Assembly: GCF_946892675.1 (NCBI RefSeq)
Contig: NZ_CAMPOV010000001.1
Location: forward strand, 1,710,033-1,774,032
DNA length: 64,000 nucleotides
Direction of reading: 5' to 3'
Source: Arthrobacter sp. Marseille-P9274
GTDB lineage: Bacteria > Actinomycetota > Actinomycetes > Actinomycetales > Micrococcaceae
Within the stretch, counting starts at the first letter, position 1, and every line of letters begins with the position of its first letter. The notes under the pieces are model-generated. The model did no database searches. It was not told the DNA's origin and saw nothing but the letters and a program-made list of their open reading frames with translations. Below are positions 39,679 to 59,248 of this stretch, piece by piece. A program made the translations under genes and the position numbers.

Positions 39679-42600
39679 CTAGAACAGCTCGTCGACTACG
39701 CGTTCCGTCGCGTGGCCGTCGTCGTGCGGCGCGAATTTCGCCACGAACGCCGCCAGCTGCTGATCGCGGTCCGCATCTGCATGGAAAGCCTTCTCCAGCT
39801 CGGCGTAAAGGCCGGCCTCGGAATCAACGACGGGTCCCGGCAATTCGGTGCTGTAGTCCAGATAGAACCCGCGCAGCGTGTCCCGGTAGAGCTCCAGGTC
39901 GTAGGCGTAGAAGACGACGGGGCGACGGAGGATGGCAAAATCGAAGAAGACCGACGAATAATCGGTAATCAGGACGTCGCTGGCCAGGTACAGCTCCTGG
40001 ATCTCCGGGTACCCGGAAACGTCCTGGACCGATTCCCGTGCGCTATCCGGAATCTCGATGTTGCCGCTGACCAGGACGTGCATGCGCAGCAGCAGCACCG
40101 CGTCCGAGCCAAGCCGTTTGTGGAAGGTCTCCATATCGAAGGGCATCTCGAAATGGAACCGGCCCTTGCCGTTGCTTTGCGAGTCGCGGAAGGTCGGCGC
40201 ATAGAGGACCACGCGTTTGCCTTCCGGAATGCCCAGCTTCCGCTTGATTTCGGCACCCTGCTTCGTTGCGGACTCGTCGGCGAGGATATCATTGCGCGGA
40301 TAGCCGGTTTCCAGCACCCGGCCGCCGAATTTGAAGGCGCTGCGGAAAGCCGAGGTGGCGTATGGGCTGGGCGAAAGCAGGACGCTCCATTGCCGGACGG
40401 CCTGGCTGACGCGGTCCAGGTACCCCTCGTCCCGGCCGTGGACTTCGTCCAGATCGTGCAGCATCCGCTTCAATGGTGTGCCGTGCCAGGTCTGGATCAT
40501 GACGCCGTCCTTGCGGCGGCGGATGTAATACGGGAAATTCTGGTTGTTGACCCAGTACTTGGCCCGGGCGAGGTACCAGTAATACTGGGGCGACAGCCGT
40601 TTGATGACCTTGGTGTGTTCGTCCTTTACGGGCAGCTTGCCGCGGTAGACCCACACCTTGGTCCGCGGGTCATTCCTCCGGACCAGTTCCTCGTAGATGT
40701 ACCGCGGGCTGTCCGCATACTGCTTGCCGATCCCGCTCTCGAAGACGATCAGGTCCTCGTCCATCGGCAGGCGCAGCGCGGCTGCGTAGAACCGCCGCAT
40801 CGTGGGGAAATAGAAGCGGCTGCGGCGGAACCGGCCGAAGGCCCGTTCGCCGAACTCGGGGTCGACCAGCTTACGGATCCGCGATTCGGCCGGCTTGGCA
40901 TGGAGAACGGCTTCGAAGATGCGCGCTGAGTTGTCGCGGTCCTTGAATTTCAGGAACCTGCGGGAGCGGCGGACGTACTCCTCGGTCATGACGCAGCCCG
41001 ATGCCAGCGACCGTTCGAGGTCTCCGAGCAAGGTATCCGCGTCGAAGGCGATCTTGCCGGGAAGTTCCGCGTCCAGGTCCAGGTGCGATCCCTTGCGTCC
41101 GAGGAACCGCTCCCGGTCGAACTGGAAGTAGTGGACGGGCTTTTCGAGGAAGCTGAAATCGAATCCGACGCTGGAGTAGTCGGTCACCATGACGGCGCTT
41201 TCCTTCAGCAGGTGCTGCACGTCGACCTCGCCTTGCGAGATCACGCGGGCGGGAGCATCGGCAAAGTAGCCGCGGTACTGCTGCATGTTCGGGTGCAGGC
41301 AGAAAATGATCTCGGCGTCGTGCTTGGCCGCCATGCCGCGCAGCCGCTGGTCATGCAGCAGATCGTTCCACTGCTGGAAGTACTCGGACTCGGTGAACAG
41401 TTCCGGGCGCGTCAACCAGTCCCGCCAGGTAGGAATGATGAGGACCTGGTTCTTCTTCACGGCGACGTCGCCGGCGAACAGGGCGTCAAACCGCGACAGG
41501 CCCGTAACGGCGACGTCTTTGGCCGGGTACTCGAAGTCATCGACGATGTACTCCTTTTCCCGGTCCGAACTGACGATGAACACGTCGGTATCGAACCCCG
41601 CGGACTTCTTGCCGTAATTCGGCACCATCCATTTGGTGCCCATGACCCCGTGCTGCAGGAATACCTTGACACCGCCGACCGTCCGCCGGAACTGCGGCAT
41701 TCGTGTCGGATACAGGAAATCCGGGTGATGGGAACCGATGAACCGCTCGGCCCGCAGGGCGAGGTCGAAATGCTGCTTGGAGCGGAAGGGCACCACGTTC
41801 CCCAAGCCATCCAGATTGCGCCGCTCCGGCGACTCCGGATCGATCACATAGTAGGCGTCGATCTCCGGATGCTCCGCCCGCATGTAGCGGAAGAAGTGCA
41901 GGCCCGTGTCCTGGGCCTTGTAGGGCCGCTCCCCGATCAGCCAGACGGGTTTGCTCCCCGGACGCCGCTGCGGCTGGAGGGGAATCCGCGTACGGCGACG
42001 CAGATGTTCGAAGGCCCCGGAATCCAGCAGCTCCACATGGAACGAGGTCTTCTTGGCCTTGAACGTGTAGTAGGGCGTCAGCAGCAGGGTCTTCTTGCCG
42101 CGCCGCTGCCACCCGGCGCGCGACATCTTGCGGGTCAGGTACTTTGTCTTGCCGATCCGGGTCCGGACCGGCTCGGTGCCAGGGTCTTCTTGGACCTCGA
42201 GCCAGGCGTCGAGGATGGTCTCCCCCGCCAGCTGCTCGTCCTGGTACGGCCCGAGGTCCAGCTTCGCTTCGAACCCGTACTCGCGCAGCCCGAACCGCCT
42301 CGCGGTGGCCTTCTCGTCCAGCCGGAGGGTAGCCGCCGTCGAATAGCGCGATCCGCTGTCCCGCCCGACCAGCACCAGGTCGGCGCCGGACGCCGTCCCG
42401 TGCCGGGTCACCAGCCGTCCGGTGAAGCTCACGACTCCGCGGTCAACGGACAATTTGTGGACATACACCGCGTTGTAGGGTTTCAACACCCGGTTCAGGG
42501 CCAACGCCAGATAGCCGTTGCGGTTGATGTAGAGCTGGGCCCGATTGCTCCCGGTGTCCACCGCCTCGAGCCGGCCGGCATGTGTCGCCATAAAGCGGCC

Positions 42601-43155
42601 GAGCCCGATCATGGCACGCCATTCGGCGGGGAACTCCGGCCCGTCCTCGTCGCGAAGCTGCCGGAATTCCGCGAACTTCAGCGGCTCCCCTGCCTCGTCG
42701 GAGCGGATATCGCGGCCATAGCGCGGGATGTCGGCGGCGGCCGCGGCAACCTCGATGTACAGCGCGACGGCGGTGCCTTCCGGTTCGGCGGCAGTGCCGG
42801 ATTCCGCGGGAGCGGGCGCGTCAGCCCAATCGGGACCGAGTTTGTCCGGCAGCTCCTGCGCCAGACGCTCCAGGTCAAGTTCGGCCTGGTAAGTCATGCC
42901 GTCCGTGGACGCGCGGCTTCCCGGCGCCTGGGCGGCGCGGGCAACGTCGGCCAGGCGGACCCAGCCCGCGTCCCTGTGGAGGGCCCAGATGGCCAACGGT
43001 GCCACGCCGGGCGCCAGAGTGAACACCACTGTAGCCGCGGTCCCGGACTGGACGACCCTGAGCTCATGAAGTTCGCGCCGTGCGGAATTGGACCTCGGAT
43101 CGAGCGCCTGCTCGGCCCTCGCCTTGACCTTCGATATCAGTGAGGGGGTGTTCAT
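39679..43155 (-). CDS. Tandem CDP-glycerol glycerophosphotransferase (TagB/TagF family), with N-terminal beta domains
   Basis: A 1158-residue protein that probably builds a phosphodiester polymer at the inner membrane face. It has two full TagF-type GT-B units. Unit one (about 403-760) has QHG near 502, LHPN near 621 and TDYSS at 659. Unit two (about 800-1158) has WHGT near 891, RMH near 1025 and TDYSS at 1065. These are the histidine and phosphate-binding elements of the family, and both units keep them. Residues 1-380 are beta-rich; 241-376 resemble the small protein at 50088-50468. Its ATG overlaps the Stealth gene stop (ATGA) and follows GGAGAAGA. The exact polymer unit is unknown. Confidence 0.88.
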   Translation of the reverse strand: MNTPSLISKVKARAEQALDPRSNSARRELHELRVVQSGTAATVVFTLAPGVAPLAIWALHRDAGWVRLADVARAAQAPGSRASTDGMTYQAELDLERLAQELPDKLGPDWADAPAPAESGTAAEPEGTAVALYIEVAAAAADIPRYGRDIRSDEAGEPLKFAEFRQLRDEDGPEFPAEWRAMIGLGRFMATHAGRLEAVDTGSNRAQLYINRNGYLALALNRVLKPYNAVYVHKLSVDRGVVSFTGRLVTRHGTASGADLVLVGRDSGSRYSTAATLRLDEKATARRFGLREYGFEAKLDLGPYQDEQLAGETILDAWLEVQEDPGTEPVRTRIGKTKYLTRKMSRAGWQRRGKKTLLLTPYYTFKAKKTSFHVELLDSGAFEHLRRRTRIPLQPQRRPGSKPVWLIGERPYKAQDTGLHFFRYMRAEHPEIDAYYVIDPESPERRNLDGLGNVVPFRSKQHFDLALRAERFIGSHHPDFLYPTRMPQFRRTVGGVKVFLQHGVMGTKWMVPNYGKKSAGFDTDVFIVSSDREKEYIVDDFEYPAKDVAVTGLSRFDALFAGDVAVKKNQVLIIPTWRDWLTRPELFTESEYFQQWNDLLHDQRLRGMAAKHDAEIIFCLHPNMQQYRGYFADAPARVISQGEVDVQHLLKESAVMVTDYSSVGFDFSFLEKPVHYFQFDRERFLGRKGSHLDLDAELPGKIAFDADTLLGDLERSLASGCVMTEEYVRRSRRFLKFKDRDNSARIFEAVLHAKPAESRIRKLVDPEFGERAFGRFRRSRFYFPTMRRFYAAALRLPMDEDLIVFESGIGKQYADSPRYIYEELVRRNDPRTKVWVYRGKLPVKDEHTKVIKRLSPQYYWYLARAKYWVNNQNFPYYIRRRKDGVMIQTWHGTPLKRMLHDLDEVHGRDEGYLDRVSQAVRQWSVLLSPSPYATSAFRSAFKFGGRVLETGYPRNDILADESATKQGAEIKRKLGIPEGKRVVLYAPTFRDSQSNGKGRFHFEMPFDMETFHKRLGSDAVLLLRMHVLVSGNIEIPDSARESVQDVSGYPEIQELYLASDVLITDYSSVFFDFAILRRPVVFYAYDLELYRDTLRGFYLDYSTELPGPVVDSEAGLYAELEKAFHADADRDQQLAAFVAKFAPHDDGHATERVVDELF

Positions 43156-44681
43156 TCTTCTCCTAGTTCAAACGAACCGGGCACCGGAAAATAGGCGTCC
43201 AGGAAGTCGTTCAGCATCGCGTCCTGCCGTTCGGGAGCGACGCGGGCCGGACCGGTCTCGTTGAGGCAAAATACATCGGCATCCCGGTTGCGCAGCAGAC
43301 GCAGCAGCTTCGCCGGGGCCGAGGCCTCCGAGATGTCGCAGAATCGGTAGTCGATGGTCCCGGGAACTGCGGCGCCGATCCCGTAACCGTAGTAGTGGGC
43401 CAGCGACGACGGAATGGAAATGTCCTCCGGACTCCGGAACGGGGAACGGGTCGTCCGGGCATGGTCGGCGGGGAAGTCCTGCTCGATCCGCTGCAGCGTG
43501 CTCACGCGCTGCGCGTGGGCCGCGTGCTTGAACTTGTAGGACACTGTCCTGCCGAACCGTTCCTCCAGCAGTGCGCGGTTCCGCTTGGCCGCGCTGTCCA
43601 CCGGCAAGTCGGCCGCCGAAATTCCGCCGGCGGGGATCGTCTGTTCGGAGAGGAAGAACTTGGCCAGGCCGTTGCCATGGAAGAACCGTTCCGGGCCCAC
43701 CCGGCGCCCGAAGAATACGTCGTCGTTCAGGTAGAGGAAATGCTCGCTCAGTCCCGGAACCCGATGCAACCTGGCCTCGATCGCGTGCGAGTTGAAGGTC
43801 GGCAGCGCCTCTGCCGGGAAGATTTCCCGGTGGTCGACGACGGTGATCCGCGGGTTGCCGGTGTCCAGCCAGTGCGGCACTTGGCCTGCCGTCACCAGGA
43901 AGATCCGGTTGGCCCAGGGGGCGTAGTAGTCGACCGAGCGCAGGGAGTACCGCAGTTCGTCATGGGAGCGGTAGCGCTCAGGGTTGGCCGCGTGCGGGTT
44001 CACGGTTCCCGGATGGATCCGCGCCCAGGAGGCCTCCCGCTCCCGCGCCCAGCGGGGGTCCTCCCCGTCGACCCAGGTGTAGACGATGTCGACCGGATCG
44101 GTGACCTCGTCCATCCCTGCCGGAGGAAGCGTGTCGCCGGTGGGGCCGATGTGGCAGGCCAGCTCGCTGCCGGACAGGACCAGGCCGTCCGCGCAGCGGT
44201 ACTCGAAGACTTCCAGCGGCCACGAATCAGTGCCCACGCTGCCGATGAGCCCGGCTGGTGACCCGCCCCTCCCGCCGGCATAGACGGCCCGCGTTTCTGC
44301 CAGATGCCGCAGTTCACGAGCAATCAAAGGAAGTTCCTCGGCGGCAGCGACCAGCCGGAGTCCGCGGCCCGGCGCTCCGGGCTCCAGCCGATACGCGACT
44401 CCGGCGGACTCGGCCGCGGCGGCCGCTAGCGCCGCATTCTCCTGGGCCGCGCCGACCGCCGAAAACTGCCGGACCGTCCTGGCCAGGACGGTTCCGCCTG
44501 CTGTCCTTAGGGGGACGTAGCCCGGCTCCAGGCCGGCCCGGACGCTGTGCGTGCGCGCCTTGTCGATGCGTCCGGCCACAGCGCGTTGGGCCGCGGTGCG
44601 CCCCTCGATCACATCGAAAGCCGTCTGCAGGACTGGCTGAGGCAGAAGGCGCGCGACCTTCCCCTTCATTCCTGCGATCAT
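43152..44681 (-). CDS. Stealth-family sugar-phosphate transferase
   Basis: 509 residues. The four conserved Stealth regions are visible: CR1 DIVYTWVDGEDPRW near residue 198; CR2 from SHDELRYSLRSVDYYAPW to YLNDDVFFGR near 239-325; CR3 around FRSPEDISIPSSLAHYYGYGIG; CR4 with FCLNETG near the end. Known members transfer hexose-1-phosphate (for example GlcNAc-1-P) from UDP-sugars to build phosphodiester-linked capsules. The first 190 residues are a separate Ala/Arg-rich region. It starts after AAAGGA and is coupled to the TagF-like polymerase by ATGA, so the two probably act on one polymer. Confidence 0.9.
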   Translation of the reverse strand: MIAGMKGKVARLLPQPVLQTAFDVIEGRTAAQRAVAGRIDKARTHSVRAGLEPGYVPLRTAGGTVLARTVRQFSAVGAAQENAALAAAAAESAGVAYRLEPGAPGRGLRLVAAAEELPLIARELRHLAETRAVYAGGRGGSPAGLIGSVGTDSWPLEVFEYRCADGLVLSGSELACHIGPTGDTLPPAGMDEVTDPVDIVYTWVDGEDPRWAREREASWARIHPGTVNPHAANPERYRSHDELRYSLRSVDYYAPWANRIFLVTAGQVPHWLDTGNPRITVVDHREIFPAEALPTFNSHAIEARLHRVPGLSEHFLYLNDDVFFGRRVGPERFFHGNGLAKFFLSEQTIPAGGISAADLPVDSAAKRNRALLEERFGRTVSYKFKHAAHAQRVSTLQRIEQDFPADHARTTRSPFRSPEDISIPSSLAHYYGYGIGAAVPGTIDYRFCDISEASAPAKLLRLLRNRDADVFCLNETGPARVAPERQDAMLNDFLDAYFPVPGSFELGEE

Positions 44682-44838
44682 AGAATCCTTTCAGCACCGC
44701 GGGAGCCCCTCCTGCCCGGAAGAGCCGTTACAGTCTAGCAATGCCCCTGACCGCCGGCGCGGAAGCCAAAGGCCACGGCGGCGCCGTCACGGTTCGTTAG
44801 GCTGTAAGGCACCGCTAGCCCTGCCGACAGGAGTTCCC

Positions 44839-46062
44839 GTGCCGCGCATCGAGCAGTTCCGACGTGCTCTGAAAGTCCTTTCCGACCATGCCTCCAATCT
44901 CCTGCTAGAACGCAGGGTGCGCCAGCAGCTGGCATCGGCCGCGCCTGCTACCGCTCAGGGGTACGACGCCGTGATCTACTTCGCGGACGACGTTGCCAGC
45001 GCGTATCAAGTGCGGCAGTGGTTCGGTCCGATGTCCAGGCTCGCGAGGACGCACCCCGTGGCCGTGCTCTGCCACCGACCGTCCACGGCCGCCGCGCTCC
45101 TCAAGGACGCCCCGCTGCCCGTCTACCTGGCCACCGGTATCACGCAGGTCGAGGATTTCGTCCGGACCCGCGGTACCAGGGTTGTCTTCTACGTCAACAA
45201 CAACCAGGCGAATTTCACCGTCCTGCGGCTCACCTCGCCGATCCATATCCATCTGAGCCACGGTGAGAGCGACAAGATCTCCATGGCCTCCAACCAGCTG
45301 AAGGCCTACGACCACTGCTTCATCGCCGGCGAAGCTTCGCGGCGCAGGATCGAGGCCGCGGTCAGGCATCTGCGGCCCGGGAGCCTGGTCGAAATCGGCC
45401 GGCCGCAGCTGGACGATTTCGTCGAGGGCACCGATGGCGACGTCCTGAAGGGAAGGACTGGCACGACGCGGCGCGCTACCGTCCTGTACGCCCCCACGTG
45501 GGAAGGCGACCGCCCGGCCATGGCCTACGGCTCCCTCGTGTCGCACGGACCGGCGCTGGTCGAAGCCATTCTGGCGAGCAGCGAATACCGCCTGGTCTTC
45601 CGCCCCCATCCCCGGAGCGGAACCCGGCTCGCGGCGCACGGCCAGGCCGTCGACCGGATCGCAGCGATGATCAGGGCGGCCGCCAAGGCGCAGCCCGATG
45701 CGGGGCACTACGTCGACGACCGCCCGGATTTTGCCGAGTCCTTCACGGAAGCCGACGTCTGCATCTGCGATATCTCCGCGATGGCGATGGACTGGCTGCC
45801 GCGGGGCAAGCCGCTGCTGGTCACCCTGCCGGCCGATGCCGGGGCCGCGGTCGACCGGAACGGAATCGCCGGCGTCGTACCCCTGCTCGACGCCGGCGAC
45901 AGCGGCAACATTGTGCAGGTCCTGCACGATCTCGAGGCCGCTCCGGTCAGCCAGGAACAGCTGGACCTGGTCCACCGGATCTTCGGCGACACCGCCCCCT
46001 ACGCCAGCACGCGGCGCTTTATCAGCGCCTTCGAAAGGGCCTTGGCGGAGGCCGGCCTGTAG
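44839..46062 (+). CDS. TagF-like CDP-glycerol glycerophosphotransferase family protein, divergent
   Basis: 407 residues from GTG 44839, with CAGGAG seven bases upstream. The GT-B-like core has HLSHGESDK near residue 137, VFRPHPRSG near 254 and CDISAMAMDW near 310. These correspond to the HG, LHP and TDYSS elements of TagF, the last being altered (CDISA). It may add a first glycerol phosphate or be a specialised transferase; activity cannot be assumed. It diverges from the Stealth gene across a 157-base gap (44682-44838) that must hold promoters for both directions. Confidence 0.78.
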   Translation: MPRIEQFRRALKVLSDHASNLLLERRVRQQLASAAPATAQGYDAVIYFADDVASAYQVRQWFGPMSRLARTHPVAVLCHRPSTAAALLKDAPLPVYLATGITQVEDFVRTRGTRVVFYVNNNQANFTVLRLTSPIHIHLSHGESDKISMASNQLKAYDHCFIAGEASRRRIEAAVRHLRPGSLVEIGRPQLDDFVEGTDGDVLKGRTGTTRRATVLYAPTWEGDRPAMAYGSLVSHGPALVEAILASSEYRLVFRPHPRSGTRLAAHGQAVDRIAAMIRAAAKAQPDAGHYVDDRPDFAESFTEADVCICDISAMAMDWLPRGKPLLVTLPADAGAAVDRNGIAGVVPLLDAGDSGNIVQVLHDLEAAPVSQEQLDLVHRIFGDTAPYASTRRFISAFERALAEAGL

Positions 46063-46104
46063 AATAGCGGGCACTGCGAAGTTGGGGTCCCAAAAAACGC
46101 CGAC

Positions 46105-46110
46105 AGGAGG
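46105..46110 (+). promoter_or_regulatory. Shine-Dalgarno site deciding a non-canonical start
   Basis: AGGAGG, a perfect ribosome-binding site. Six bases on is ATT (46117) and three bases on is CTG (46114). No ATG, GTG or TTG follows it in the acyltransferase frame until GTG 46195. Confidence 0.75.
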
Positions 46111-46116
46111 CTTCTG

Positions 46117-48192
46117 ATTTCAGCCGAACAGTCAAAAGCGGACGGCCGGAAAACCGGTTTCCGCGCCGATATCCAGGGCCTCCGCGCCATCGCGGTGGGT
46201 CTGGTCGTTGTCTATCATTTGTGGCCCGAACGGCTCACCGGTGGCTACGTGGGCGTGGACGTCTTCTTCGTGATTTCGGGCTTCCTGATCACGTCCCACC
46301 TCATCAAGAAACCGCCGCGGACGCCCAAGGACCTGGCGCAGTTCTACGGCCGGCGGATCCGGCGCCTGCTGCCGGCGGCCTTCGTGGTGCTGGCGGCGAC
46401 CGCTGCAGCCGCCCGCCTGGTCGCACCGCCGACCCTGTGGGAAGGCATCGCCAAAGAAGTCATCGCTTCCGCCCTCTATGTGCAGAACTGGGTCCTGGCC
46501 GGCAGTTCGGTTGACTATCTGGCCGTGGAAAACGAACCGACCCCCACCCAGCACTTCTGGTCCCTGTCGGTGGAAGAACAGTTCTACTTCTTGTGGCCCG
46601 TCCTCATCCTGGCGGTATTTTGGGCCGCCGGCAGGGCGCGCCTGAAACCCATGGCGCTGGTGCGCCCAGCGGTCGCGATGGTGTTCGCCGCCTCGCTGGC
46701 CTTCTCCGTCTATGCCACGGCCACCGAGCCGGGCAGCGCCTACTTCATTACCCCAACGCGCATGTGGGAACTGGCGGCCGGCGGGATGATCGCCACCTTG
46801 ACTCCGCTCGCCGCAACCAGGCTCAACCCGGCCGCCAACGCGATCCTCGCCTGGATCGGTGTAGCCGCGATCGTCATTGCCGGACTGACCTTTACGGATG
46901 CGACGCCGTTCCCGGGCTATGCGGCCGCGCTGCCGGTACTTGGTACGGCCCTAGTGATCCTCGCCGCGTCCGGGCACAGGCTGTCACCGGCGACCATGTT
47001 CGCGGCCCGTCCAATTCAATGGCTAGGCGGTGTATCGTACTCCGTCTATCTCTGGCATTGGCCCCTGATCGTGCTGCTCCCCTACATCAGCGGCGGGAAC
47101 CTGGGCTGGCTGGACAAGCTGGTCATCCTCGCCGCGACCTTGGTACTGGCCGCGCTCAGCAAGACGTTTATCGAGGACCGCTTCAGCTTCACGCGGGCGG
47201 CCCAGAGCCTGGTCCCAACCTACAGATTCGCCGCCGCCGGAATGGCAGTCCTGGTCGCCGCCGGCGGCCTGCAACTGGCTGAAGTCGGTTTCCGCACTCA
47301 ACAGGCGCAGCAGCAGTTGGCCGCTGCGGAAAACAGCAATGATCCGTGCCTGGGGGCCGCGGCAGTCGCCAATGGGGCCGAGGAATGCCAGCCGGACCCC
47401 GATGTCCCGCTGGTCCCTGATCCGGCCTTGGCCAAGGAGGATCGTCCAGCCGCCTACGCGGACCAGTGCTGGTCCAACTCTCCGTTTACTGATCGTCCCG
47501 TCTGCGAATACGGCGACGGCGAGACACAGGTTGCACTGGTGGGCAATTCGCACGCTGGCCACTGGCTGCCCGCGCTGCAGGTCCTGGCGGAGAAGAACGA
47601 CTGGACCATCTCGACTTACCTGGTGTCACGCTGCAACCCGACGGACGTTCCCCTGCAGTTCGACACCCAGGAGAAGACCGACAATTGCCGGGAGTACGGC
47701 GACTGGGTCCTCGATCAAACAACGGGCGGCCAGTACGACCTGGTGGTCACCTCCGAACGGCAGTCGGTTCCGGTGCAGGGCGAGTCCTGGAAGACGACGG
47801 AAGAGCCCGCCGTCGAAGGCTACCTGTCCTATCTGGCCGAATGGGACAAGGCCGGCACCAACGTCCTCGTCATTAAGGATCCGCCCTATCCGGGCAACGA
47901 GATCAGCTCGATTCCCGACTGCCTGGCCGAGAACGACGGCGATGCTGCCGCCTGCAGCGGTACCCCGAGTGAGTGGCACTGGATAGATCCCCTGTATACC
48001 GCGGCCCGCGAGCTCGGTTCCCGGCACATCGGAACGGTGAACCTGGACGGCTATTTCTGCCCCAAGGGATCCTGCGAGGGCGCTATCGGGTCCGTCGTCA
48101 CATACTCCGACGGCTCGCACATCACGGCAACCTACGCCAAGACGCTCGCGCCCTACCTCGAGCAACCCATCAGGGACGCGCTGAGGGGCTAG
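46117..48192 (+). CDS. Membrane O-acyltransferase with C-terminal SGNH domain (OafA type)
   Basis: Acylates cell-surface sugars. About 691 residues if translation begins at ATT 46117. The N-terminal acyltransferase-3 domain starts with the conserved FRADIQGLRAIAVG and continues GVDVFFVISGFLIT, then about ten membrane helices to residue 400. The extracytoplasmic SGNH hydrolase-like domain has GNSHAGHW near 495 and SDGSHIT near 665. The only canonical in-frame start (GTG 46195) would cut inside the conserved first motif, so a rare start codon served by AGGAGG at 46105-46110 is likely. It lies 54 bases after the TagF-like gene in the same direction and probably in one operon. Confidence 0.88.
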   Translation: MSAEQSKADGRKTGFRADIQGLRAIAVGLVVVYHLWPERLTGGYVGVDVFFVISGFLITSHLIKKPPRTPKDLAQFYGRRIRRLLPAAFVVLAATAAAARLVAPPTLWEGIAKEVIASALYVQNWVLAGSSVDYLAVENEPTPTQHFWSLSVEEQFYFLWPVLILAVFWAAGRARLKPMALVRPAVAMVFAASLAFSVYATATEPGSAYFITPTRMWELAAGGMIATLTPLAATRLNPAANAILAWIGVAAIVIAGLTFTDATPFPGYAAALPVLGTALVILAASGHRLSPATMFAARPIQWLGGVSYSVYLWHWPLIVLLPYISGGNLGWLDKLVILAATLVLAALSKTFIEDRFSFTRAAQSLVPTYRFAAAGMAVLVAAGGLQLAEVGFRTQQAQQQLAAAENSNDPCLGAAAVANGAEECQPDPDVPLVPDPALAKEDRPAAYADQCWSNSPFTDRPVCEYGDGETQVALVGNSHAGHWLPALQVLAEKNDWTISTYLVSRCNPTDVPLQFDTQEKTDNCREYGDWVLDQTTGGQYDLVVTSERQSVPVQGESWKTTEEPAVEGYLSYLAEWDKAGTNVLVIKDPPYPGNEISSIPDCLAENDGDAAACSGTPSEWHWIDPLYTAARELGSRHIGTVNLDGYFCPKGSCEGAIGSVVTYSDGSHITATYAKTLAPYLEQPIRDALRG

Positions 48193-48240
48193 GGTTTGGG
48201 CGCCCGGAGCCGATTCCCCGGCTCCGGGCGGGCCGCTGCC

Positions 48241-50091
48241 CTATACGAGTTTCAGGCTCAGGGAGGCGTGGGCCGTGGCGTACGGCCTCCAGGACGGTCC
48301 GGGCCCGGGAAACCCGACGCGGAATGACTTCAGTACGTTGTTCCCCTGCACTTGCAGGAAAATATCCAGCTCGTTGTTGTCCTGGGGCACATCGCGCGCG
48401 ATTTCGTCCGGAGCCACCTCCGCCCTGATGCCGAGGCGGCCCGGTCCCCGTGCCTCGACCTCGGCGGGAAAGAATGCCGGCGCCCCGCCGGACCGTCGCC
48501 CGATCACCAGGTTCGCCCGGAGAATCTCCTCCGCGGCCGGCCCGGACTGCTGCGCCCAGAGAATGTCGCCGGCGATGCCAAAGCCGCCCGCGGCGGTGTA
48601 AAAGAGTTCCTCGAGCCGGAAGTCCAGATGGGTCAGGATCAGCCGCTCCAGGCGCTGGCGCCACGCCGTGCGGATCGTCCGGGCCCAGTGCTCCAGGACT
48701 GCTTCGTTGGAGAATCTCTCACTCCGCTCCCAGGCGGCGGCGCCCAGCCGGCGGGCAAGATCGTCGTCGTCGCAGAGCCGGATGACGCGTTCAGCTGCGG
48801 CTGCCACGTCCCGTGCAGGAACGAGGAACCCGTTGACGCCGTCCTCGATAACGTCGCTGGGGCCGTAGCGGATGTCGTAGGAAACCGGTGGGCAGCCGCG
48901 GCCCAGGCTTTCCATCAGGGAGAGCGGCTGGCCTTCGTTGCGGCTGGTCAGCAGCGAAAACCGCGCGGTCTCGAACTGGGCCGCCGCGTTGGGTGTGTGG
49001 CCGTGCAGGCGCACGGAGTCCTGCAGCCCGAGCGCGTCAATCTTTGCCTGCAGCTCGTCACGGAGCGAACCCGTCCCGTAAATGTCCAGGCGGACCAGCG
49101 GCCGCTGCTGATGCACTCGGGCCATGACCTCGACGGCGTGCGGAACGTTTTTCTGTGCCTCCAGCCGGCACACCATGACTCCCCGGTTCGGAACCCGCGC
49201 GGCGAAATCCGGGAGCACCTCGCTCCGCGGTTTGGGGTTGGACACCGTGAAGAGGTTCGTAGACTTTCCGAAGCGGGCCTCGTAGTCCTGGCGCTGCTTC
49301 CGAGTCAAAAAGACCAGTCCGTCCCAGGCCAGGCTGTTCTCATGGATCGGCTTCTGGCCCGTGGCCAGCTTGCCGAGGAAAGGATCTCCGCCACCACCGA
49401 TGTGGCTGTTGTGGAGCACCATGAGCTTGATGATGTTGGGCTCGTCGAGAGGTGCCACGACCGGGCCGGCGAAGGAGCTGTCGACGATGAAGGCGGCCGG
49501 TTGTCCCCCGGCCAGTTGCCTCATCCAGAATCGATAGAAGTCCCCCGCCCGTCGCCACTGGGCCCTTGCAGTACCTGTTTCGTCGGTCAGTGTCAGGAAG
49601 CGCCCCTTGCTCGCGCCGTCCCGTGTCTGAGGTGTCTCATCGCGCAGGAACTCGGTTCCATCGGGGCGATAGAAGTGCCGTGCGGCCACTGTGGTGCCGT
49701 CGGGCCGGAGGAATGCCCGGGAGTAAATGTTCCCCTCCGGATCGAGCACTACTTCCGGAAGGCCCCGCTCGCCGTCATCGACGGGGACGGCGACAGGCTT
49801 GGGGCCGTCGACCTCACTGGCAGCTGCTGCACGGTAATACTGGAAGACGTTGAGGACCTCGGTGTCGTGGGCAAGTTTGCCCTGGGCGCGCAGCCGCTCG
49901 ACCGTGGAGGCGTAACTGGATTTCACGTCAAACGTCAGGATCGTGGCCCGGTGCCCCGCCTGGCCAAAAGCACCGGCCCGGTGCAGGCTCATGGTGGTCA
50001 TGCCCCCGAAGTTGTCGGCAATGCCCCACAGCACCATGAAATACTTCATGTCCGGAAGGCGCGCCTCCCCGGTTTCCTGCACGCCGCTCAC
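48241..50091 (-). CDS. Glycosyltransferase family 4, TagE-like
   Basis: Probably decorates the polymer with a sugar from a UDP-sugar. About 616 residues from GTG 50091, which overlaps the upstream stop (GTGA); ATG 50049 (MKYFMVLWG) is an alternative. The GT4 core has MVCRLEAQKNVPHAVEV, IYGTGSLRDEL and the donor-site run EGQPLSLMESLGRGCPPVSYD, as in TagE poly(glycerol-phosphate) glucosyltransferases. The last 90 residues (LVIGRRSGG ... LSLKLV) are a separate beta-rich domain that matches the neighbouring 126-residue protein. It converges on the acyltransferase gene. Confidence 0.85.
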   Translation of the reverse strand: MSGVQETGEARLPDMKYFMVLWGIADNFGGMTTMSLHRAGAFGQAGHRATILTFDVKSSYASTVERLRAQGKLAHDTEVLNVFQYYRAAAASEVDGPKPVAVPVDDGERGLPEVVLDPEGNIYSRAFLRPDGTTVAARHFYRPDGTEFLRDETPQTRDGASKGRFLTLTDETGTARAQWRRAGDFYRFWMRQLAGGQPAAFIVDSSFAGPVVAPLDEPNIIKLMVLHNSHIGGGGDPFLGKLATGQKPIHENSLAWDGLVFLTRKQRQDYEARFGKSTNLFTVSNPKPRSEVLPDFAARVPNRGVMVCRLEAQKNVPHAVEVMARVHQQRPLVRLDIYGTGSLRDELQAKIDALGLQDSVRLHGHTPNAAAQFETARFSLLTSRNEGQPLSLMESLGRGCPPVSYDIRYGPSDVIEDGVNGFLVPARDVAAAAERVIRLCDDDDLARRLGAAAWERSERFSNEAVLEHWARTIRTAWRQRLERLILTHLDFRLEELFYTAAGGFGIAGDILWAQQSGPAAEEILRANLVIGRRSGGAPAFFPAEVEARGPGRLGIRAEVAPDEIARDVPQDNNELDIFLQVQGNNVLKSFRVGFPGPGPSWRPYATAHASLSLKLV

Positions 50092-50468
50092 GAGTCCTTC
50101 CTCTTCAGGCTCAAGTTGCCCAGCTTGGTCGGGTAAGGAAGCCAGTGCGCCACGCTCCGGTCCCATGCGACGCGGGTCCGCGTCTCCTGGCCGGAACCAC
50201 GGCCGATGAAATACACGTCGGCCAGATTGTCGCCGGCGATGTCGAGCGCAGTGAGCGGAATCCGGCCGGAAACCTCCAGCTGCTGGCCCTTCCCTGTCCA
50301 TTGAGCCGGGTATTCAGTCTCCGACTTCGTCTTCCTGCCGACAACGACGAACGCCGCCGCTTCCAAATCGACGTTGGCCAGCCAAGCCATACCTCGCAAG
50401 GTCAGCTCACCCGCGGCACTGATGCCGGTCTTCGTCAATTCGAACCCTCCAGACGATGCAGTAGGCAA
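50088..50468 (-). CDS. Free-standing small beta-domain protein of the glycopolymer locus
   Basis: 126 residues with no signal peptide or membrane helix and a strand-rich pattern. Its core reads FVVVGRKTKSETEYPAQW, then VYFIGRGSGQETRTRV and WLPYPTKLGNLSLKRK. The same arrangement is seen at the C-terminus of the next gene's glycosyltransferase and inside the N-terminus of the tandem TagF-like protein. It is translationally coupled to the glycosyltransferase by GTGA (50088-50091), so the two probably work together. I do not recognise a named family. A polymer-binding or assembly role is an inference. Confidence 0.78.
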   Translation of the reverse strand: MPTASSGGFELTKTGISAAGELTLRGMAWLANVDLEAAAFVVVGRKTKSETEYPAQWTGKGQQLEVSGRIPLTALDIAGDNLADVYFIGRGSGQETRTRVAWDRSVAHWLPYPTKLGNLSLKRKDS

Positions 50469-50594
50469 AGGTACTCCCCAAAGGTCAATCAGATGATGTT
50501 ACGCACGCGCAGTTCGGCACCAACCCTATCGTCACCATCGAATCCTCGCGCCGTTCGAACCGCAGCCATCGCGAATTCAGTAAGATGTCACCTG

Positions 50595-53192: not shown

Positions 53193-54259
53193 CGGCCAAG
53201 GTGCAGCCCGACAGCGGAGCGCCGGCCCAGGCCCGCGTCCGCCAGACCTGGATCGACCAGGCCCGCTGGGCCGCGATCGTCCTGGTCGTGGCCGGGCACG
53301 CGGTCGGCTTGCTGCGCGGCAGCAGCGGCCTTGCCCTGGTGATGTCCAATTACGTCTACATCTTCCACATTCCGGTCTTCGTGCTGCTCGCCGGCTGGGG
53401 CGCCCGCCGCGCCCAGGCCGATGGCGCCGGGCTGGCCAAGATCTTCTGGCAGCTGCTCGTGCCGTACGTCCTTTTCCAGCTGATCGCCTTCGGCTTCAAC
53501 TACCGCTTCGAGGATGACAACCCGAGCTGGTCCTTCACCTCCCAGACCTTCGGGTTGTGGTTCCTGGTGGCACTGGCCGGCTGGCGCCTGATGGCGCCGT
53601 GGTTCCGGGGACTGCGCTTTGCCGTTCCGATCGCGGTCCTGCTGGCCCTGGCGGCGGGCCTCAGCTCCGACTTCGACGGGTTCCTGTCGCTGTCCCGCGT
53701 CCTGTATTTCCTGCCGATGTTCCTGCTCGGGCCCTGGCTGGTGGACAGGATTTCGGAGTGGCGCGGGGATGTCCGGTTCCGCATTGGCGGCGTCGCCGTG
53801 CTCGCGGCAGGCGCCTTGCTGACGTTGCTGCTGGGTGGAAACTTTAACCGCGAGCCGTTCCTGGGGAACGTCGGCTATGAAGCGATGAACATGTCCGCCC
53901 TCGAGGGGACCGGCTGGCGCCTGCTGGCGCTCGCCGCCGGCACCGTCATGGCGGCGGCGTTCATGCTGGCCCTACCGGGCCGGCCCAACGCCCCGTCCCG
54001 GCTGGGATCGTGGATTGCCGAAGCGGGCCGGCACACGATGTACCCGTACCTGCTGCATCTCCCGCTGCTGACCGTGGTGGGTTCCACCGGCCTGGTCGAC
54101 GCCGGTCAGCCGACGCTGCGCACGGTGGCCTTTATGGCAGCCTCGCTCGCATTCTGCATAGTGGCCAGCTCGAAGCCGGTCAGGATGGTGACGGCGGTCG
54201 TCGTCGAGCCGCGGACATTGTTCCCGCCGGCACCCAGGACGGTCAGCTCAGCTCCTTGA
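53189..54259 (+). CDS. Membrane acyltransferase (fucose 4-O-acetylase-like)
   Basis: About 356 residues from ATG 53189, which overlaps the upstream stop (ATGA). An acyltransferase-3 family protein with about ten membrane helices and no SGNH domain. The family's entry motif is IDQARWAAIVLVVAGHAVGLL near residue 22, with the catalytic-type His in GHAV, followed by IFHIPVFVLLAGWG. It resembles NolL/fucose 4-O-acetylases that acetylate extracellular polysaccharide units. Its 3' end overlaps the convergent tagD gene by 17 bases (54243-54259). Confidence 0.87.
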   Translation: MTAKVQPDSGAPAQARVRQTWIDQARWAAIVLVVAGHAVGLLRGSSGLALVMSNYVYIFHIPVFVLLAGWGARRAQADGAGLAKIFWQLLVPYVLFQLIAFGFNYRFEDDNPSWSFTSQTFGLWFLVALAGWRLMAPWFRGLRFAVPIAVLLALAAGLSSDFDGFLSLSRVLYFLPMFLLGPWLVDRISEWRGDVRFRIGGVAVLAAGALLTLLLGGNFNREPFLGNVGYEAMNMSALEGTGWRLLALAAGTVMAAAFMLALPGRPNAPSRLGSWIAEAGRHTMYPYLLHLPLLTVVGSTGLVDAGQPTLRTVAFMAASLAFCIVASSKPVRMVTAVVVEPRTLFPPAPRTVSSAP

Positions 54260-54704
54260 CGATCTGGCTGATGCTGTCCAGAGTCCGCTTGAGTTCCTCC
54301 ACGTGCCGCTCGTCGAACGCGCTGAGCACGCGCTTCATTTCCGTCGTGGAGATGCCGGAGGTACGGGGCAGGTAGACCACCTCGACACTGTCGCCCAGAT
54401 CGTCGAACTTCCCCTTCCAGTCCTCGCCGATCCCGAAGACATCCACGCCGTACTTGGCGATGTCTTCGCGCTTTTGTTCCCACCGGTCTTCGGGAATGGC
54501 TTCGTCGACGTAGCGGATGGACCGCACGATCTCGATCCGCTGGTCGAAGGGCACAACGGGCTTCTTGCCCTTGAGCGCGTTGAACTCGTCCGTGGATACT
54601 CCGACAATCAGCCGGTCCCCCAGGGCGCCAAGCCGCTTCAGGATGTTCAGGTGTCCGATGTGGAACAGGTCGAATGTTCCATAAGTGAGGACCGTCTTGC
54701 CCAC
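54243..54704 (-). CDS. tagD: Glycerol-3-phosphate cytidylyltransferase
   Basis: Makes CDP-glycerol from CTP and glycerol 3-phosphate. 153 residues from GTG 54704. The cytidylyltransferase motif is GTFDLFHIGHLNIL near residue 9 (HxGH) and the second is RTSGISTTEMK near 113, equivalent to the RTEGISTT of TagD. Size and motifs fit TagD/TarD closely. This is the only donor-making enzyme in the locus and supplies the TagF-like proteins. Upstream, 54705-54797 holds its promoter. Confidence 0.94.
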   Translation of the reverse strand: MGKTVLTYGTFDLFHIGHLNILKRLGALGDRLIVGVSTDEFNALKGKKPVVPFDQRIEIVRSIRYVDEAIPEDRWEQKREDIAKYGVDVFGIGEDWKGKFDDLGDSVEVVYLPRTSGISTTEMKRVLSAFDERHVEELKRTLDSISQIVKELS

Positions 54705-56558: not shown

Positions 56559-57628
56559 GATTTCCTCCTGCTCGTGTCCACCGTGCCGTGCGCGCCGAAG
56601 ATCCGTCCCCGCAGGTAGCCCAGCCCCCAGCTGACGTGGATCCCGGGCAGGACGGCCAGCAACCGGAGCCGCTCGGAAAGGGTCAGGTCCGCCTTGATCG
56701 TCACGGCGGCATAGACGATCCCGAGCACATACAGCACGGGAACCAGGCCCGCCAGCAGGACCAGCACGGCGAGCCAGGCAGGCCAGGCAGCGGTGGCACC
56801 GGCGGCCAGCAGGACGTCCGCCGCCAGTCCTACGGCCAGCGCGATGACGAGCACCGGTGGCAGGAAGTGGCGGACGGACTTGCCTTCCTTGTGGCGCCGT
56901 GCCAGCTCGGCGCGCCAGATCCCGGCGGCGTAGAACTGCCGGACCATCTTGGTCCAGGTGGCGCGCGGCCAGTACGTGACCTTCAGCTCCGGATCGAACC
57001 ACACTGCGTAGCCCGCCTGCCGGAGCCTGAGGCACATGTCCCAGTCCTGGCCGCGCCAGAGGGTCTCCTCGAAGTGGCCGACCGCGTCGAGGGCCTCGCG
57101 CCGGAAAATGCCAAGGTAGGCCGATTCCGCCGGGCCCTCCGGCGCGCCGCTGTGGTAGGCGGCGCCGCCCAGGCCCAGCGGCGAGACGTACGCCGTGGCG
57201 ACGGCCCGCTGGAACGGCGTCTTGCCCTGGGCGTCCATCAGCCCGCCCACATCCGCCGCCCCGGTGCGCAGCAGGGTGGCGACTCCCCGCTCCGTGTAGC
57301 CGGGCTCCAGTTCGGTGTGCGCATCGACGCGGACCACCACGGGATACTGCGAGGCGCGGATGGCCAGGTTCAGCCCGGCCGGTGTGCGGCCCGTGGGGTT
57401 CTCAACCGTGTGCAGCCGTGGTTCTTCCGCCGCCATCCTGGCGACTACCTCATTCGTGGCGTCGGTGGACGGCCCGAGGGCGAGCACGATTTCCTTCTGC
57501 CCGGCGTAGTCCTGGTCGAGGATGCTGCGCACGGCGGCTTCAATGTGCTCGGCCTCATTGAGGATCGGCATGACATAGGAGACACCGGGGTGCTGGATGA
57601 TGCGCGACAGGGTGGGTGAGTCGGGCAC
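56555..57628 (-). CDS. Glycosyltransferase family 2 with C-terminal membrane helices (ExoA-like)
   Basis: 357 residues from GTG 57628. GT-A domain with SYVMPILNEAEHIEAAVRSIL near residue 17, the metal site VVRVDAHTELEPGY near 98, and the acceptor block RGQDWDMCLRLRQAG near 190. Three or four hydrophobic segments (about 254-310) anchor it in the membrane. The layout is that of succinoglycan ExoA-type transferases. Donor unknown. Its GTG shares one base with the TAG stop of the TagH gene. Confidence 0.86.
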   Translation of the reverse strand: MPDSPTLSRIIQHPGVSYVMPILNEAEHIEAAVRSILDQDYAGQKEIVLALGPSTDATNEVVARMAAEEPRLHTVENPTGRTPAGLNLAIRASQYPVVVRVDAHTELEPGYTERGVATLLRTGAADVGGLMDAQGKTPFQRAVATAYVSPLGLGGAAYHSGAPEGPAESAYLGIFRREALDAVGHFEETLWRGQDWDMCLRLRQAGYAVWFDPELKVTYWPRATWTKMVRQFYAAGIWRAELARRHKEGKSVRHFLPPVLVIALAVGLAADVLLAAGATAAWPAWLAVLVLLAGLVPVLYVLGIVYAAVTIKADLTLSERLRLLAVLPGIHVSWGLGYLRGRIFGAHGTVDTSRRKS

Positions 57629-58416
57629 TACTTCTTGGTTTCCTTGTACGCCGAGACGACTTCCTTCGGATCGCCGTCCATCATGAGTTCGCCCTTGTTG
57701 ATCCAGATCACCCGGCTGCAGGTGTCGAGGACGGACTTCATGGAGTGCGAGACGAGGAAGACGGTGCCCGCATTCTCGCGGATCTCGCGGATCCTGGCCT
57801 CGCTGCGCTGGCGGAACCGCTGGTCACCTACTGCCAAGGCTTCGTCCACGATGAGGATCTCGTGCTGCTTGGCGGCAGCGATGGCGAACTTCAGCCGCGC
57901 CTGCATGCCGGAAGAATAGGTCCGCATCGGAAGGTCGATGAAGTCCTCGAGCTCGGCGAACCCGACTATATCGTCCCGCAGATGGCCGATCTCCTGCTTG
58001 GAAAACCCCAGGGCAAGCCCGCCCAGCTGGATGTTCTTCTCCCCCGACAGGTCGGGGATCAGGGCCGCGCCCACGCCCAGCAGGTTGGGCCGGGACGAAG
58101 CGTAGACGGCCCCGTCGCTCGGCGGAGTCAGCCCCACCAAGGCGCGCATCAGCGTGGACTTGCCGGAGCCGTTGGAGCCGATGACGCCGATCGATTCGTT
58201 TTCGTAGGCCGTGAAGGACACGCCCTTCAGCGCGTGCACCGTCTTGATGCCGCGGCCCGAACGCTTGAGCAGCGAGCGGCCGGCGCCCTTGACCGGGCGT
58301 CCGCCCGCGTGCACCTGGTATTTCACATGCAGGTTGTCGACGACGACAACCGGCTTCCGCCCGTCCGCTGCGGTTTCGTTGAGCACTTCTTCTCCGGTTT
58401 TAGTCGACTCGGCCAT
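57628..58416 (-). CDS. tagH: ABC exporter ATPase, teichoic acid / polysaccharide type (TagH)
   Basis: 262 residues from ATG 58416 (MAESTKTGEE), overlapping the permease gene by 17 bases. Walker A is GSNGSGKST near residue 80, the signature is YSSGMQARL, Walker B is ILIVDEALAVGD and the switch is VSHSM. The basic insert before Walker A (RPVKGAGRSLLKR) is typical of polysaccharide and teichoic acid exporters. The protein ends soon after the ATPase fold, so it lacks the long extracellular C-terminal domain of Bacillus TagH. It powers export of the completed polymer. Confidence 0.9.
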   Translation of the reverse strand: MAESTKTGEEVLNETAADGRKPVVVVDNLHVKYQVHAGGRPVKGAGRSLLKRSGRGIKTVHALKGVSFTAYENESIGVIGSNGSGKSTLMRALVGLTPPSDGAVYASSRPNLLGVGAALIPDLSGEKNIQLGGLALGFSKQEIGHLRDDIVGFAELEDFIDLPMRTYSSGMQARLKFAIAAAKQHEILIVDEALAVGDQRFRQRSEARIREIRENAGTVFLVSHSMKSVLDTCSRVIWINKGELMMDGDPKEVVSAYKETKK

Positions 58417-59248
58417 AGCGCTCCTCGGCTGCCCAGAAGAACAGGACCCCGGCGACGAAGACCACGAGGGCCCACACCGAGAAATACAGCCAGTAGATCG
58501 GATTGAATTCGACACCCGGCATCAGCAGCCCCCGCGCGATCGACAGCACTTCGTGCAGCGGGTGGAAATCGAAGAGGGCCACCGCCCAAGGGTAGGGCGC
58601 CAGGATACGGTCAATGGCGAAGAGCACCCCCGAGGTGTAGAAGAGGATCCTCGTGACGAGCGGCAGCAGCTGCGTCAGGTCGCGGATATGCACGGTGAGC
58701 CGCGCCCCGACCAGGGCCACGCCGAGGTTGAACACGGTGAAGATCGCCACCAGCGGGATCATCAGCAGCCATTCCGCCCGGATCGGAGCGCCCAGGACAA
58801 GGATGTAGACCACCATGACGCCGAGCATCGGCACCAGGGTCATCAGCTGCTGGATCACGGTGGACAGCGGCAGGGTGATCCTCGGGAAGGCCAGGGACTG
58901 CACGAGCGCCCCGTTGCCGGTGATCGACTTGGCACCGTTGTTCATCGAGGTCGAAAAGTACTCGAACAGGAATACCCCGATCACCACGTACATCGGGAAG
59001 TTCTCCGGACGGTTCGATCCCTGCAGGACGCCGAAGATCAAGCCGTACATCACGGCATTGAGTGTGGGCTTGATGAAGATCCACAGCATGCCCAGCCGAT
59101 TGCGCTGGTTCGCTGCTTCGATCTTGTACTTGGCCATGGCGATGGCGAAGTCGCGGCGGCTCCAGGCATCGGCTAGATAGCGGTGCAGCGACGGCCGGGC
59201 ACCGACTCGGTGGAGTCGGTTCCGGTTCGCATAGTCGGCAAGGCTCAT
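58400..59248 (-). CDS. tagG: ABC exporter permease, teichoic acid / polysaccharide type (TagG)
   Basis: 282 residues with about six membrane helices of the ABC-2 type. The N-terminal cytoplasmic part includes RRDFAIAMAKYKIEAANQRNRLG, the usual lead-in to the first helix, followed by LWIFIKPTLNAVMYGLIFG. It pairs with the ATPase gene that overlaps it and should form the channel for the lipid-linked polymer. It is the first gene of the run tagG-tagH-GT2-CDP-OH-P-GT2. Confidence 0.9.
   Translation of the reverse strand: MSLADYANRNRLHRVGARPSLHRYLADAWSRRDFAIAMAKYKIEAANQRNRLGMLWIFIKPTLNAVMYGLIFGVLQGSNRPENFPMYVVIGVFLFEYFSTSMNNGAKSITGNGALVQSLAFPRITLPLSTVIQQLMTLVPMLGVMVVYILVLGAPIRAEWLLMIPLVAIFTVFNLGVALVGARLTVHIRDLTQLLPLVTRILFYTSGVLFAIDRILAPYPWAVALFDFHPLHEVLSIARGLLMPGVEFNPIYWLYFSVWALVVFVAGVLFFWAAEERYGRVD

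Follow-up and report, generated by a model that had tools for sequence, protein, structure and literature searches.

A domain related to TarS C1 in three proteins of a teichoic-acid-type locus of Arthrobacter sp. Marseille-P9274, one of them free-standing

Introduction

The closest described relative of the domain treated here belongs to the Staphylococcus aureus glycosyltransferase TarS (PDB 5tz8 and 5u02), in which a C1 domain (Pfam PF18674, TarS_C1) lies behind a family 2 glycosyltransferase (GT2) catalytic domain and a linker, and is followed by C2. According to the published account, C1 and C2 have an immunoglobulin (Ig)-like fold similar to that of the carbohydrate-binding modules CBM48 and CBM68, form the trimer and carry basic grooves, and a role in holding the polymer was proposed (PMC5156392). 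The same account gives, for TarS truncated to lack C1 and C2, a calculated processivity of 133 versus 2400, by a method that its authors term simplistic, and a Km for the polymer polyRboP of 2840 versus 1240 uM with similar kcat/Km (PMC5156392). Here, we analyse three proteins encoded on the minus strand of a 64,000-nucleotide stretch (the window) of the 4.8 Mb genome of Arthrobacter sp. Marseille-P9274, i.e. a 126-residue protein, a family 4 glycosyltransferase (GT4) resembling TarM and SdgA, and a TagF-like protein, and compare a segment of each with TarS C1.

The data support a single accessory domain, present as a separate protein, as the C-terminal tail of the GT4 and within the N-terminal half of the TagF-like protein, all in one teichoic-acid-type locus. 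In TarS the domain stands between the linker and C2; here it is found in a TagF-like enzyme, behind a GT4 catalytic part and on its own. A preliminary description of the stretch had noticed the recurring domain, and all three segments are located where it had placed them, on the minus strand. That observation proves correct and useful, but calling the domain undescribed was wrong: it is part of a broader family of TarS_C1-like domains. Less is known of the free-standing copy, the gene of which overlaps that of the TarM-type GT4.

Results

The small protein and the GT4 tail are homologous

The free-standing single-domain protein (126 residues, 50088-50468, minus strand, TTG start at 50468) and the tail of the neighbouring GT4 transferase (tail at about residues 467-602, 48244-48651; gene 48241-50049, both minus strand) are homologous, judging from reciprocal searches with profile hidden Markov models (HMMs). 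A model of eight small proteins detected 17 of 20 GT4 tails at E <= 0.04 (the exceptions being L022, L028 and L029) and 16 of 20 at E <= 0.01, with the window's tail at 3.1e-11. Conversely, a model of the 20 tails recovered all eight small proteins, the window's own at 3.1e-9. The effective database was set to 5000 in both directions, and none of 1080 shuffled proteins was reported at E <= 10. The likeness is also visible between single sequences: blastp of the window's small protein against its tail alone yields 26% identity across 130 columns and E 1.4e-4, the search space being limited to a few short sequences, and a single-sequence search with the small protein already hit the tails of GT4 enzymes from two relatives, at E 4e-4 and 0.0057. 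The preliminary description had called the small protein collinear with the last 90 residues of the GT4; the homology holds, whereas the length common to both is about 125 residues.

Four residues, R45, R99, T114 and S120 in small-protein numbering, are invariant in 24 rows of small proteins and tails. The ending of the small proteins, WLPYPTKFGNLSLKRK-like, is strongly conserved within the genus and recognisable beyond it. In the following, A1 denotes a profile of 24 of the 28 rows, i.e. the eight small proteins and 16 of the 20 tails (L022, L025, L027 and L029 omitted).

The TagF-like protein carries a TarS_C1 domain

The third segment, residues 230-374 of the TagF-like protein (42034-42468, minus strand; protein of 1158 residues, 39679-43155, minus strand), is recognised outright by Pfam as TarS_C1 (PF18674: E 6.6e-37, 127.3 bits against a curated cut-off of 26.3, profile positions 2-147 of 147). 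Hence this copy is, by sequence, a full-length member of a described family, contrary to the preliminary description, which knew of none. That description had also taken it for an N-terminal module; it does lie in the N-terminal half, as the second region there rather than at the N-terminus itself.

The relation of this copy to the other two segments is established at the level of profiles. Aligned with hhalign, the small proteins and tails match the TagF copies with Prob 96.1 and P 3e-9 over about 85-90 columns, at a score of 56.6 compared to a maximum of 22.5 in 200 column-shuffled controls, so that the sharing of one domain by all three segments, as first described, is upheld by profile-to-profile comparison. 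The TagF-type profile, A2, comprises the window and 21 of 26 family loci; of the remaining five, L035 is the window itself and L040, L049, L055 and L057 were omitted, while the GT2 protein L059 was included. The scored part of the hhalign alignment ends before the last strands, where TagF has an insertion; a PYxT...S ending is visible in both alignments outside that part. In the window's TagF copy, VGR, RTRIG, PYYT and TSF hold residues that look like counterparts of the four invariant ones; across 22 TagF-type rows the first of these, R, never varies, and the T and S of the ending are kept in at least 90%.

With other methods this link is weaker than that between the small protein and the tail. 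Single sequences reveal no likeness of the small protein to the TagF segment. Of 26 proteins that carry TarS_C1, the small-protein HMM detects three at E <= 0.02. A combined HMM detects seven of them at E <= 0.01, each time within the same segment, and gives the window's own E 1.3. In the opposite direction, the TagF-copy HMM finds two of the eight small proteins, with the window's own at E 6e-4.

Relation to TarS and fold

Although it contains no TarS sequence, the A1 profile ranks the TarS entries 5u02 and 5tz8 first and second among 177,635 PDB sequences (E 0.075 and 0.19), and the alignment falls on C1, in register up to the PYFTK ending. The TagF-copy profile finds TarS at E 0.0018. A phmmer search of the PDB with the small protein returned no match. 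An AlphaFold2 model of the small protein (six sequences; predicted local distance difference test, pLDDT, 70; predicted template modelling score, pTM, 0.65) is all-beta, and Foldseek places the N-terminal domains of S. aureus TarK and TarL (PDB 8v34 and 8v33) best among 350,542 chains, with E 7.1e-4 to 9.8e-4 and template modelling (TM) scores of 0.44-0.45. TarK and TarL are known here from their PDB titles, and the PDB searches found no sequence match between their N-terminal domains and the three segments. We infer that the GT4 tail and the TagF copy have the same fold as the small protein.

A number of results weigh against so close a relation to TarS C1. The small protein and the GT4 tail have no Pfam match of any kind, even at E 10, and hence none to PF18674 at that threshold; neither Pfam nor NCBIfam assigns the small protein to a family. 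The small-protein HMM on its own gives the window's TagF copy E 3, in the correct place, so that the preliminary expectation of a one-segment HMM finding the other two was borne out for the GT4 tail and not for this copy. The A1 match to TarS is not significant alone. The fold match of the model to TarK and TarL is modest, the last 24 residues of the model are unreliable, amylase and antibody domains come next, the E-values of antibodies and other Ig-like chains being similar to those of the best matches, and TarS is not among the best 50 Foldseek matches. Furthermore, a model of the TagF half (two sequences, pLDDT 47) was unreliable, gave antibody-like matches of low TM-score and was not used as evidence. 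The small protein and the GT4 tail thus lie outside the Pfam model; still, their joint profile leads weakly to the TarS domain, and the modelled fold of the small protein comes closest to the N-terminal domains of TarK and TarL.

The domain accompanies several classes of glycopolymer enzymes

All survey counts given here are lower bounds, since genomes were screened by a loose first look and A1 was scored on 10 or 14 candidates per genome. In the order, with at most 14 candidates per genome, the A1 profile matched 22 of 297 genomes at E <= 0.01, in at least 28 places of which two are the window's own. By Pfam, the 26 outside matches comprise 14 GT4, four GT2, four TagF-like and one RgpF-type enzymes, one small protein and two unrelated proteins. 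In the four GT2 enzymes (L070, L071, L075 and L086) the match lies 12-53 residues behind TarS_linker, whereas in three of the four TagF-like proteins it overlaps TarS_C1, one TarS_C1 match being just under its cut-off. The small protein has no Pfam family and stands beside a GT4 (genome G845, of another family). The total of 26 includes the two unrelated matches, an LpqB protein (E 6e-4) and ribosomal protein bL25 (E 7.5e-3). As the other 24 fall in GT4, TarS-type GT2, TagF-like and RgpF enzymes or the one small protein, the domain is, by sequence, an accessory of several glycopolymer enzyme classes and not of one. The A1 profile also matched at least two of 396 genomes of the phylum.

TarS_C1 itself was found in at least 25 of 197 family genomes, in 26 places, of which 25 are TagF-like by eye and one is a GT2 (L059). 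Over 296 genomes of the phylum, PF18674 matched only the genome holding the window.

Two of the proteins surveyed deserve separate mention. L059 (3-2777, minus strand, genome G085) combines GT2, TarS_linker, TarS_C1 and a polysaccharide pyruvyl transferase domain in one frame, i.e. a TarS-like enzyme fused to a pyruvyl transferase. The RgpF (rhamnan synthesis) protein, L082 (1-2253, minus strand), matches A1 at E 0.0066 with a stretch that ends in a YTTIEGNVSVRR-like motif.

The survey also bears on whether the three segments, or at least that of the TagF-like protein, merely resemble each other by chance as unrelated beta-sandwiches. Such an explanation would accommodate the silence of single sequences and of the small-protein HMM on the window's TagF copy, the many Ig-like chains that match the model, and the capture of LpqB and bL25 by the profile. 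Against this, the 200 shuffled controls stay far below the hhalign match (P 3e-9), and A1 independently hits four GT2 enzymes after their TarS_linker and three TagF-like enzymes at TarS_C1; we regard chance likeness as very improbable.

The gene of the free-standing copy lies directly upstream of a tailed GT4

At least nine genomes hold the free-standing form: eight of 197 family genomes, the window's included (single-sequence search), and G845. In all nine, the small gene is directly upstream of the tailed GT4, and in seven a four-base overlap (GTGA, ATGA or TTGA) joins its stop codon to a possible in-frame start codon of the GT4. In the window, this is a GTGA (50088-50091, minus strand), in which a GTG at 50091 could start the GT4 frame over the TGA stop of the small protein; the GT4 would then be 616 residues long, as opposed to 602 from the ATG. 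A ribosome-binding-like site, GGGGAG (50474-50479, minus strand), was read directly five bases upstream of the TTG of the small protein. Overlap coupling often marks proteins that are made together, and, from the arrangement of the genes, the small protein and the GT4 are probably translationally coupled.

Two sets of loci speak against a general partnership of this sort. Two of the nine pairs lack the overlap, with an ATG two bases past the stop in L019 and a longer gap in L033. Moreover, when the upstream regions of all 20 family GT4 loci were read, 12 had no small protein within 1.5 kb; therefore, the small protein is dispensable or absent there. In L021 (180-1415) and L023 (185-1393), the gene directly upstream of the tailed GT4 resembles, by eye, the protein with a single Glyphos_transf domain at 44839-46062 of the window, and stands in place of the small protein.

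These distributions invite the alternative that gene fission or duplication left the small protein behind as a relic, a split-off tail retained by its operon position with little function of its own; the GT4 already has a copy, most family GT4 loci do without the small protein upstream, and few family genomes were found to hold it. However, its ending is strongly kept within the genus and recognisable beyond, and the pair recurs in another family (G845). In addition, a tree of 27 rows (nine small proteins and 18 tails, the latter from 14 of the 20 family GT4 loci and four of the 14 outside GT4 matches of the order survey) parts small proteins from tails by one branch, with a support of 84/61 that is modest, several branches being long, and none of 500 label shuffles was as low. 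Since the split and the recurrence indicate that the arrangement is old or transferred rather than recent debris, we find a relic rather improbable and favour a functional detached subunit.

A literature search, in which coverage of subscription papers was limited and which is not proof of absence in print, found no free-standing TarS_C1-like protein named.

Other features of the locus and of the TagF-like protein

The catalytic part of the GT4 matches PF00534 (group-1 glycosyltransferases) in the Pfam scan at E 3.1e-29, TarM structures at E 1.7e-41 in the PDB search, and an SdgA model at E 4.3e-40 (137.7 bits, under its cut-off of 800). The likeness to TarM/SdgA-type GT4 is that of the catalytic part: in the window's enzyme the TarM matches stop at residue 440 or 457, and in the TarM chains close to their end, which leaves the tail unmatched. 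The TagF-like protein has two Glyphos_transf stretches (PF04464, E 3.4e-157) and matches the TagF structure 3l7i at E 2.1e-81. In neither enzyme did the Pfam scan return a GT2 or TarS_linker row, the domains that mark a TarS glycosyltransferase.

Further genes of the locus encode a Stealth protein (43152-44681), a glycerol-3-phosphate cytidylyltransferase-like protein (54243-54704; 155.1 bits, under the model cut-off of 165.4) and a TagH-like ATP-binding cassette ATPase (57628-58515; 174 bits, under the model cut-off of 320). Together with the TagF-like and GT4 genes, these give the locus, by sequence likeness, its teichoic-acid character.

The first N-terminal region of the TagF-like protein (about residues 26-226; 42478-43080, minus strand) has several predicted strands and ends in YINRNGYLALAL. 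In its low-confidence model the strands follow one another, and a short helix precedes one of the later ones, as in the model of the small protein. It is possibly a further, diverged copy of the domain. As a candidate copy it was not retained from profile comparison, which gave P 0.28 and 0.011 on 14-17 columns and no significant match, the latter value reflecting a last strand that resembles that of the domain family; comparison with the PDB gave no useful match.

Discussion

Based on the profile comparisons and the gene arrangement, we propose with moderate confidence that the three segments represent one TarS-C1-related domain and that the small protein acts as a detached oligomerisation or acceptor-holding subunit. 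The segments would be copies of a single Ig/CBM48-like beta-sandwich, comprising PF18674 and close relatives missed by the Pfam model, without catalysis of their own. By analogy with what is reported or proposed for TarS, the copies fused to the GT4 and the TagF-like enzyme would most likely cluster several molecules of a teichoic-acid enzyme and hold the growing chain close to its active site. The small protein would be a detached copy whose synthesis is probably coupled, at translation, to that of the GT4, and it would most likely dock onto that enzyme, whose tail has a single copy, so that docked protein and tail would form a pair of domains like C1-C2 of TarS. Oligomerisation, polymer holding, coupling and docking, as well as the identity of the polymer, are what we infer from these comparisons. 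The suggestion of the preliminary description, that the domain may bind the polymer or hold the enzymes together, matches by analogy the roles reported or proposed for the TarS relative (PMC5156392).

Charge and the behaviour of TarM temper this proposal. The net charge in the window is +2 for the small protein, 0 for the GT4 tail and +8 for the TagF copy, and the family medians are +1.5, -2 and +2.5, respectively. Being near neutral, the small protein and the tail do not indicate polymer binding through basic grooves, and their charge weakly favours protein contacts over polymer binding. In addition, the TarM-type GT4 may not need this domain, because TarM trimerises by another one (PMC5156392).

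Alternatively, the domain may be a polymer-binding module and nothing else, each copy binding the teichoic-acid chain and the small protein acting freely, without contact to the GT4. The CBM48/CBM68-like fold and basic grooves described for C1 and C2 of TarS (PMC5156392) would fit, as would the amylase structures among the Foldseek matches and the net charge of +8 on the window's TagF copy. CBM48, CBM68 and the N-terminal domains of amylases belong to different enzymes, however, and carbohydrate binding by the window's segments is putative. Considering that the small protein and tail are near neutral and that overlap with the gene of one enzyme points to an enzyme subunit, we judge polymer binding as the sole function unlikely.

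Returning to the detached subunit, a more far-reaching form of the proposal, which we advance tentatively and would not yet expect to hold, is that the GT4 tail and its coupled subunit rebuild in trans the two-domain module that serves trimerisation and polymer holding in cis in TarS. The processivity with which teichoic acid is glycosylated could then depend on the amount of this small, detachable protein, itself a single TarS_C1-like domain.

In conclusion, the domain family links the accessory domains of GT2 enzymes of the TarS type, GT4 enzymes of the TarM type and TagF-type polymerases with a small unannotated protein. With three enzyme classes and this protein tied to one family, the structural and kinetic knowledge gained on TarS should be transferable to tails that at present are unannotated. 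The free-standing copy, finally, would provide a simple test of the role of the domain, since it can be added to a reaction or omitted from it.

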